Origin: Bacteroidota bacterium
GTDB taxonomy: Bacteria; Bacteroidota; Bacteroidia; AKYH767-A; 2013-40CM-41-45
Assembly (NCBI GenBank): GCA_026391975.1
Contig: JAPLDB010000111.1
Coordinates: 1 to 46,822 of the forward strand
Direction: 5' to 3'
DNA length: 46,822 bases
Made by a program: the position numbers and the translations under genes. Each line of letters starts with the position of its first letter. The stretch's first letter is position 1. Shown one piece after another: positions 3,481 to 45,376 of the stretch. The notes below the pieces were generated by a model. The model did not search any database and was not told the DNA's origin. It saw only the letters and a program-made list of their open reading frames with translations.

Positions 3481-4248
3481 TTACGGAACCAGTGGCTCAC
3501 TTGCCGGTGGCGCCTCAGGAACGACATCCAGCATACCAAAACCCTGATAAGTATAAAGTCCCATGCCTGACTGCCAGATAAACTTTTGCACCTCAGGGTG
3601 GGCATGCAATGAAAATGGCAGGAGATATCCGTAAATAGTGTGGTTGCTATTGTTCTTATAAATACGGGCAAATTTTTTCTGCGAGTCGATCACCCTTTGG
3701 ATGTATCCCGGATCAGGGGTAATTTCAAACTCTGCATATTCGTTCAGCTGCGACTCAGTATACCCTGCCTTTTCCATTCGGTCAAGGATGGAGTTGAAGA
3801 GAAAATCAGAAAACTCCTGTGATGATGGTTCCAGCGGCGGCGGCGGCGTTTGCATATTGTCAAACGGCTCGTCAGGAATGAGCGGAGAAATGCATACATA
3901 TTTCATCACCGTTTGAAATTCCGGTTCGCTGATTACCTGGTAAGACTTAGGAACGAGGGTTAGCTTGGCAAAACTGACAAGTCTGCGGTCGAATATCTTT
4001 TTCACCAATGCCATCACAAATTCCTCTTCCGGCGCTGATATCACCAATGAAACCTTAGAAGAAAGAAAGCGGATCTGTCCGTTCAGCACTTTAGAAGTAC
4101 CCTTGAGGGACGAGAATGTATATTGGGTAGATTTGATTGGCAATTCTTCAATCACCTCATCCATAAATGCTGAAATAATTTTTTGGTGATGCAAAGGAAC
4201 CATGCCATTGCTGCCATGGACTTTCAAAAAAGAAATTTTAAGACGCAT
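3481..4248 (-). CDS. cas6: CRISPR-associated endoribonuclease Cas6-like protein (isolated)
   Basis: The 255-residue protein reads as a Cas6 family RAMP endoribonuclease, which cuts pre-crRNA within repeats. The N-terminal MRLKISFLKV strand and PLHHQ helix start (His20, His21) match the region that carries the general-base His in many Cas6 proteins. YTFSSLKG at 43-50, the EPEF...YVCISPLIP segment near 108-125, and the C-terminal glycine-rich loop GMGLYTYQGFGML (228-240) are the family landmarks. A proline-rich insert (TPPPPLEP, 134-141) and a Pro/Ala-rich tail after the G-loop are unusual. No other cas gene and no CRISPR array occur in the window, so it is isolated. The assignment comes from motif recognition, not a profile search. 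Confidence 0.8.
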   Translation of the reverse strand: MRLKISFLKVHGSNGMVPLHHQKIISAFMDEVIEELPIKSTQYTFSSLKGTSKVLNGQIRFLSSKVSLVISAPEEEFVMALVKKIFDRRLVSFAKLTLVPKSYQVISEPEFQTVMKYVCISPLIPDEPFDNMQTPPPPLEPSSQEFSDFLFNSILDRMEKAGYTESQLNEYAEFEITPDPGYIQRVIDSQKKFARIYKNNSNHTIYGYLLPFSLHAHPEVQKFIWQSGMGLYTYQGFGMLDVVPEAPPASEPLVP

Positions 4249-21691: not shown

Positions 21692-21779
21692 AGGTAATTT
21701 CGGGGGGCTAAAGTACGAAGCAAAAGAGGTTAACTGTTATCTGTTAGCCGTTATTTGTAACAGCCAGTGTCACGCAGAG

Positions 21780-22187
21780 GTGCAAAGACCGCAAAGGCGG
21801 AAAACCTCAAATTTCAGAGAATATTTGCGACTCGAAATAGAATGTATTTTCTACTTTATTATTCCAAATGTGGAAAGTAAGATGCAAAAGATGTTATTGG
21901 GTGTTCATCAGGCGTTATTAGTAGCAGCCAGTGTCACGCAAACCGTGCCTTCAGAGAATATTTGCGACTCGAAATAGAATGTATTTTCTACTTTATTATT
22001 CCAAATGTGGAAAGTAAGATGCAAAAGATGTTATTGGGTGTTCATCAGGCGTTATTAGTAGCAGCCAGTGTCACGCAAACCGTGCCTGCGCGTAGCCGCT
22101 TCGGCGAAGGCAAGGGGTGCAAAGATCGCAAAGGCGGAAAACCTCAAATTTCAGAGAATATTTGTGACACGAAATAGAATGTATTTT
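21780..22187. repeat. Perfect 137-bp tandem duplication with a third partial copy
   Basis: The unit 21814-21950 is repeated without a mismatch at 21951-22087. A third partial copy, with two substitutions, covers 22151-22187. The flanking GCAAAG(A)NCGCAAAGGCGG...CCTCAAAT block also occurs twice, at about 21780-21813 and 22117-22150, so the ancestral unit was longer. A GC-rich palindromic insert (GCGCGTAGCCGCTTCGGCGAAGG) lies at about 22088-22112. The repeats fill the 524-bp gap between the dehydrogenase and DUF2027-Smr genes. Short open frames in them are not gene-like. Confidence 0.95.
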
Positions 22188-45133: not shown

Positions 45134-45376
45134 TAATGCGATGAATCTCCGCATGTCAACCAGGAATCTGACAATCATGAAAAATCGAGACAAGTTCATT
45201 GGCAATTTTCTGTGCCATCCAAAAATTAGTAAAGTATGAAGCCAAGCTCCACGTTTTCTTTCAACTTTAGTCCCGCTGTCCGCTGCAAGTCCTCCCCTTT
45301 CAGGGTCCGGGCTTTTCGCTTCCATCGGGGCTAATTTAGAATGCGCACGTTTTCAATCATCATTTTTGAAACAGCC

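Follow-up and report, generated by a model that had tools for sequence, protein, structure and literature searches.

The window, by which we mean the whole stretch of 46,822 nucleotides analysed here, carries on its minus strand, adjoining rpmB, an open reading frame (4248-3481) that a preliminary description had assigned to the Cas6 family. The GC content of this gene (0.445) is close to that of the window (0.429) and therefore bears no mark of foreign origin. We refer below to its product and the orthologous proteins of related genomes as core proteins, 48 of which make up alignment A2. The gene and the parts of its product that enter into the analysis are the following.

3481-4248, minus strand: single-copy, CRISPR-independent core Cas6-like gene, encoding 255 aa plus stop
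4183-4191, minus strand: HHQ, residues 20-22, at the start of helix alpha1 (alignment A2, AF2 model)
4114-4182, minus strand: residues 23-45, short alpha1-to-beta2 stretch without the LHExG segment that bears the catalytic His in CRISPR Cas6 enzymes (residue alignments)
4093-4113, minus strand: SSLKGTS, residues 46-52, conserved basic hairpin in which S46 and K49 are invariant in A2
3826-3849, minus strand: TPPPPLEP, residues 134-141, a variable loop peculiar to the window species (alignments)
3658-3678, minus strand: KKFARIY, residues 191-197, with K191, R195 and Y197 invariant in A2
3529-3567, minus strand: Cas6 glycine-rich loop GMGLYTYQGFGML, residues 228-240 (sequence, alignment A2)
3484-3519, minus strand: Pro-rich C-terminal tail, residues 244-255, unconserved and of low model confidence

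By Pfam, NCBIfam, PADLOC and fold, the product of this reading frame belongs to the Cas6 protein family, and the profile searches bear out the initial assignment with matches far beyond chance. Pfam Cas_Cas6_C (PF01881) matches the 255-aa protein with E = 1e-15 at 59.1 bits against a cut-off of 23, TIGR01877 of NCBIfam scores 65.6 bits (above its cut-off of 58.65), and the PADLOC profile Cas6b matches at 4.9e-29. An AF2 model of the window protein (pLDDT 94.1, pTM 0.88) submitted to Foldseek returned 3UFC, 3QJJ, 5YI6, 3I4H and 3PKM as top matches, with E values to Cas6 structures of 1e-16 to 1e-11. The best PDB match by fold is 3UFC (3.1e-16, TM about 0.8, 20% identity over the alignment), and the profile search agrees, placing the same structure first at 3.4e-18. 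Model, Foldseek and sequence together give a two-ferredoxin Cas6 fold with the glycine-rich loop GMGLYTYQGFGM, so that the G-loop read earlier from the letters is indeed present, at residues 228-240.

H21 is invariant in 48/48 members of A2, and H20 and Q22 are present in at least 90%; the other invariant positions include P18, S46, K49, S147, D148, D179, Y182, K191, R195, Y197, the loop glycines and D241, among others, a set that appears suited to holding RNA. The Pro-rich insert and tail, which had been singled out as unusual, are present where described (residues 134-141 and 244-255), but the family is hypervariable in both places, and we rejected the insert, a variable loop, as a functional feature.

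Within the window's order, which we take to be AKYH767 of GTDB, a homologue was found in 40 of 41 relatives (41/42 with the window genome), one per genome, at 40-75% identity and spread over five family-level groups; the only member without a match, G021, is 58% complete. When 395 genomes were sampled evenly over the class, strong matches were confined to this order, to family f19, which we take to be Cyclobacteriaceae, and to genus g61 of family f43. The gene is present in 128 of 148 f19 genomes and in all three f43 genomes. Named records with a homologue include Bacteroidetes bacterium OLB10, UBA6661 and 2013_40CM_41_45 in the order, and MAGs called Flammeovirgaceae and Cyclobacteriaceae among f19-like records; the cultured Bernardetia sp. 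Wsw4-3y2 carries, in surroundings unrelated to CRISPR, a homologue of the f19 form (51%) that is annotated as Cas6. No copy was found in the viral contigs and phages searched, and the plasmid collection gave one match, on a 602-kb non-mobilizable Bernardetia replicon, leaving a phage or plasmid origin unsupported. Purifying selection on the gene is strong, with dN/dS of 0.006-0.11 in close pairs with measurable dS, the three highest values coming from saturated pairs.

A tree of 64 Cas6 proteins unites the core proteins in one clade (support 100/98) with subgroups for the order (100/99), f19 (100/97) and f43 (100/100), and places CRISPR-linked Cas6 proteins from the same genomes outside it. 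Among the latter are the type I Cas6 proteins of Cyclobacteriaceae-like genomes (L126-L133), which belong to the same Pfam and NCBIfam family and can co-occur with the core gene but, unlike it, stand beside Cas3, Cas5, Cas7, Cas8, Cas1 and arrays and keep LHExG. The group nearest to the core clade (99/92) consists of short CRISPR Cas6 proteins of about 220 aa (L126, L131, L179, L180, L182), which lack the LHExG segment as the core proteins do but are CRISPR-linked and retain a His in helix 1 (HKWLG). Because long branches are involved, this kinship, and with it the point of recruitment, is unsure.

Several other Cas6 genes occur in the genomes compared. The type I-like loci at L182:7257-8726 and in L126 and L131 have two Cas6 genes at a short distance from each other, one classical and one of the short HKWLG form. 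A second Cas6-like gene in L134 (G459 C25) has a degenerate LHExG, and no cas genes are evident around it. In family f52, divergent 235-aa Cas6-like proteins (L176:7877-8584 and L177:973-1683) lack both LHExG and cas neighbours and sit on a long branch outside the core clade; ychF is found some 4 kb from the gene in L177. A further family of the class has in L181 (G715 C1:1650000-1666000) a classical Cas6 that carries LHEEG and is the sole cas gene within 16 kb; it is lone like the core gene but different and catalytic-looking.

We compared the core proteins with the CRISPR endoribonuclease PfuCas6 (3I4H, 3PKM), whose triad is Y31/H46/K52 (PMC3652601). The two have in common the two-ferredoxin fold, the P-x-x-HQ start of helix 1 and the GxGxxxxxGFGM loop; in residue alignments, however, H46 falls in a segment deleted from the order and f19 proteins, and Y31 and K52 align to positions that are unconserved in core proteins. 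The segment is without His in 62 of 71 core proteins, the other nine having one at scattered places, and the f43 proteins keep its length but not the His-bearing LHExG, whereas LH is kept there by 16 of 17 CRISPR-linked and other classical Cas6 proteins. Neither the triad nor an equivalent active-site His is thus found in the core proteins. On these alignments, the canonical Cas6 catalytic residues are lost while fold and G-loop are retained. The closest known proteins by profile and fold are the non-catalytic Pyrococcus Cas6 proteins (PfuCas6nc, 3UFC, so described in PMC3652601; PH0350, 3QJJ/3QJP), which likewise keep the glycine-rich loop, and the core protein has the combination that marks Cas6nc, a Cas6 fold without catalytic residues. 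The Pyrococcus proteins are archaeal, whereas the Bacteroidia protein is the product of a core gene that spans the order, ancestrally adjoins ychF and is found in lineages mostly without class 1 CRISPR.

Loss of the triad is no proof against cleavage, since the Sulfolobus enzyme SsoCas6, which like the core protein has no active-site His, cleaves by means of Lys/Arg residues (PMC3652601). One might therefore suppose that the core protein has rebuilt its active site and works as an endoribonuclease on a specific cellular, non-CRISPR RNA, such as a tRNA, an rRNA or an mRNA leader, and the invariant polar and basic residues H21, K49, K191, R195 and Y197, the strong purifying selection and the crenarchaeal precedent would all fit such an enzyme. 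We consider it unlikely, though worth keeping in mind: all three triad positions are lost or unconserved, and both fold and profile searches rank the non-catalytic PfuCas6nc first. SsoCas6 itself is a dimeric crenarchaeal CRISPR enzyme, and crenarchaeal Cas6 structures match the core model only weakly in the fold search. H21 does not prove a new active site, because PfuCas6 has a His at the same place (NHQ); we dropped the argument that it is a new catalytic His. Cleavage by the core protein is uncertain.

The surroundings of the gene point to an old chromosomal locus. ychF lies directly upstream on the same strand in 25/25 f19 loci tested, in L072 and L073 and in 3/3 f43 loci, with a gap of about 100-235 bp. 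In the order, the arrangement is shared by 7 of 39 loci (gap 39-216 bp), among them L032, the nearest relative of the window; L071 and the remaining order loci show no ychF in the available sequence, some of these loci being incomplete. Since ychF adjoins the gene in two further lineages as well as in these seven order loci, we take this to be the ancestral chromosomal locus. Common descent appears the best explanation for linkage in three lineages, transfer of the pair being still conceivable. Other neighbours in relatives are ordinary chromosomal genes. The rpmB neighbourhood, whose conservation was to be checked, recurs in 0/42 related loci, the ancestral neighbour being ychF, and linkage to dnaB or cinA was likewise seen in none of the 42.

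A Bacteroidetes-type -7 motif occurs upstream of the gene in 19/40 and 17/31 loci, versus about 5 in shuffles; it was not seen upstream of the gene in the window itself. Reading the upstream stretches by eye, without covariation, we recognised no shared hairpin or conserved RNA element near the gene, and Rfam found in the window only Flavo-1, 41 kb away. That element is a small RNA (RF01705, 48.5 bits) at 45265-45336 on the minus strand.

Directly adjoining ychF in several lineages, the core gene might act by protein contact with YchF or the ribosome, as a partner or regulator whose RNA-binding surface is secondary. This seems to us improbable: in the window lineage and over much of the order the gene no longer adjoins ychF, the RNA-binding loop keeps its glycines without exception, and the enrichment of a promoter-like site just upstream means that ychF and the gene need not be one unit. 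Near-universal presence, single copy number, a tree that follows the taxa, synteny and purifying selection together describe a vertically inherited core gene.

The gene also stands apart from CRISPR. Arrays were sought by pattern, as three ATTGAAAY handles at array spacing, and the class 1 search covered Cas1, Cas5, RAMPs and such handle-type arrays. The window genome (G000; 3.6 Mb) has one Cas6 only, and no Cas1, Cas5, RAMP or ATTGAAAY-handle array was found in it, so by these markers the genome has neither class 1 effector genes nor an array. The pattern gave 0 matches in this genome versus 32-180 in each of five control genomes; four single matches elsewhere in the order were isolated and, against the control values, were rejected as arrays. 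No CRISPR array was present among the direct repeats of the window, as the preliminary description had stated in reporting the gene's isolation from CRISPR, which now extends genome-wide to the lack of Cas1 and of a second Cas6. At 21710-22187 of the window, a 137-nt unit stands in two identical tandem copies, accompanied by partial ones.

Cas1 is present in 9 of 42 order genomes, in loci that look type II by ORF reading, on which this naming rests: Cas1 of about 300 aa with Cas2 and, where the flank reaches, Cas9 (e.g., L184). Type II CRISPR does not use Cas6. The exception is G022, with an RT-Cas1-like ORF of about 880 aa and RAMP genes (L074, L185, L186), the only order genome in which class 1 CRISPR genes were seen. 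Among f19 genomes, Cas1 occurs in 60 of 148, and it is not associated with the core gene (55/128 carriers versus 5/20 non-carriers, Fisher p = 0.15). Some of these genomes hold a second, classical Cas6 in loci reading as type I, and several of those have large arrays of up to about 160 repeats; the two proteins thus coexist in the same genomes, each in its own place.

These observations leave little room for the suggestion that the gene serves a distant or unassembled array. Cas6 is able to act in trans, a draft that is 98% complete in 239 contigs could hide a locus, and Cas1 is not rare in f19. We nevertheless consider such a role very improbable, given that the whole-genome check yielded none of the class 1 markers sought, that the gene is in 41 of 42 order genomes as against Cas5 in 0/42 and RAMPs in 1/42 (G022), that the order's CRISPR loci are mostly of a type that makes no use of Cas6, and that f19 genomes with type I loci own a separate Cas6. 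The idea of a decaying remnant of a lost CRISPR-Cas system, which a lone cas gene without cas neighbours and with lost catalytic residues might suggest, can be set aside almost entirely in view of order-wide single-copy conservation, near-universal presence over five family-level groups, intact ORFs, dN/dS far under 1 and enrichment of the promoter-like -7 motif upstream in relatives.

INDEPENDENCE from CRISPR, the Cas6 fold, core status and the loss of the canonical active site come directly from the tools used. The reading that we prefer, with a probability of about 0.7, is that a Cas6-family protein became, early in the class Bacteroidia, a CRISPR-independent, vertically inherited housekeeping gene whose product would bind RNA. 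Of the three options raised at the outset, the reuse of a RAMP ribonuclease for another RNA fits best, in its reuse part; the ribonuclease part is made doubtful by the missing canonical catalytic residues. After this early recruitment as a housekeeping gene, the protein would bind one or a few cellular RNAs in a sequence- or structure-specific manner, gripping them with the two-ferredoxin cleft and the glycine-rich loop, in the manner of the non-catalytic Pyrococcus Cas6 proteins closest to it, and would protect, chaperone or regulate what it binds. In view of the linkage to ychF, an RNA connected with translation or the ribosome is a reasonable first guess for the target, and slow cleavage by the alternative basic residues H20/H21, K49, K191 and R195 is possible. 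We would give somewhat better than even odds to the fuller proposal of an ancient Bacteroidia RNA-processing or RNA-regulating factor derived from Cas6, conserved and perhaps essential, with a part in RNA metabolism or translation beside YchF and a defined cellular RNA target.

In the open-access literature, no paper was found that describes a core Cas6 independent of CRISPR or connects Cas6 with YchF; subscription journals lay outside the search, and novelty is provisional. One survey of isolated cas loci sets a minimum of three cas genes per locus and never mentions Cas6 (PMC5294841), and the available sections of a review of CRISPR exaptation describe no CRISPR-free core Cas6 case (PMC8730458). 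The core protein is within the Cas6 family yet lacks two hallmarks of a CRISPR endoribonuclease, the active site and the CRISPR setting. Most core proteins tested pass the TIGR01877 cut-off, for which the NCBI rule name is 'CRISPR-associated endoribonuclease Cas6'; a false CRISPR gene label is therefore likely in many genomes that have no CRISPR system using Cas6, and such labels distort CRISPR surveys. Known reuse of CRISPR parts mostly concerns whole or reduced systems. In this case one Cas protein by itself seems to have joined the ordinary core genes of an order and a second large family, its RNA-gripping part retained and its canonical cutting residues gone. Cultured relatives such as Bernardetia allow a direct search for the target RNA, so that the question can already be put to the test.
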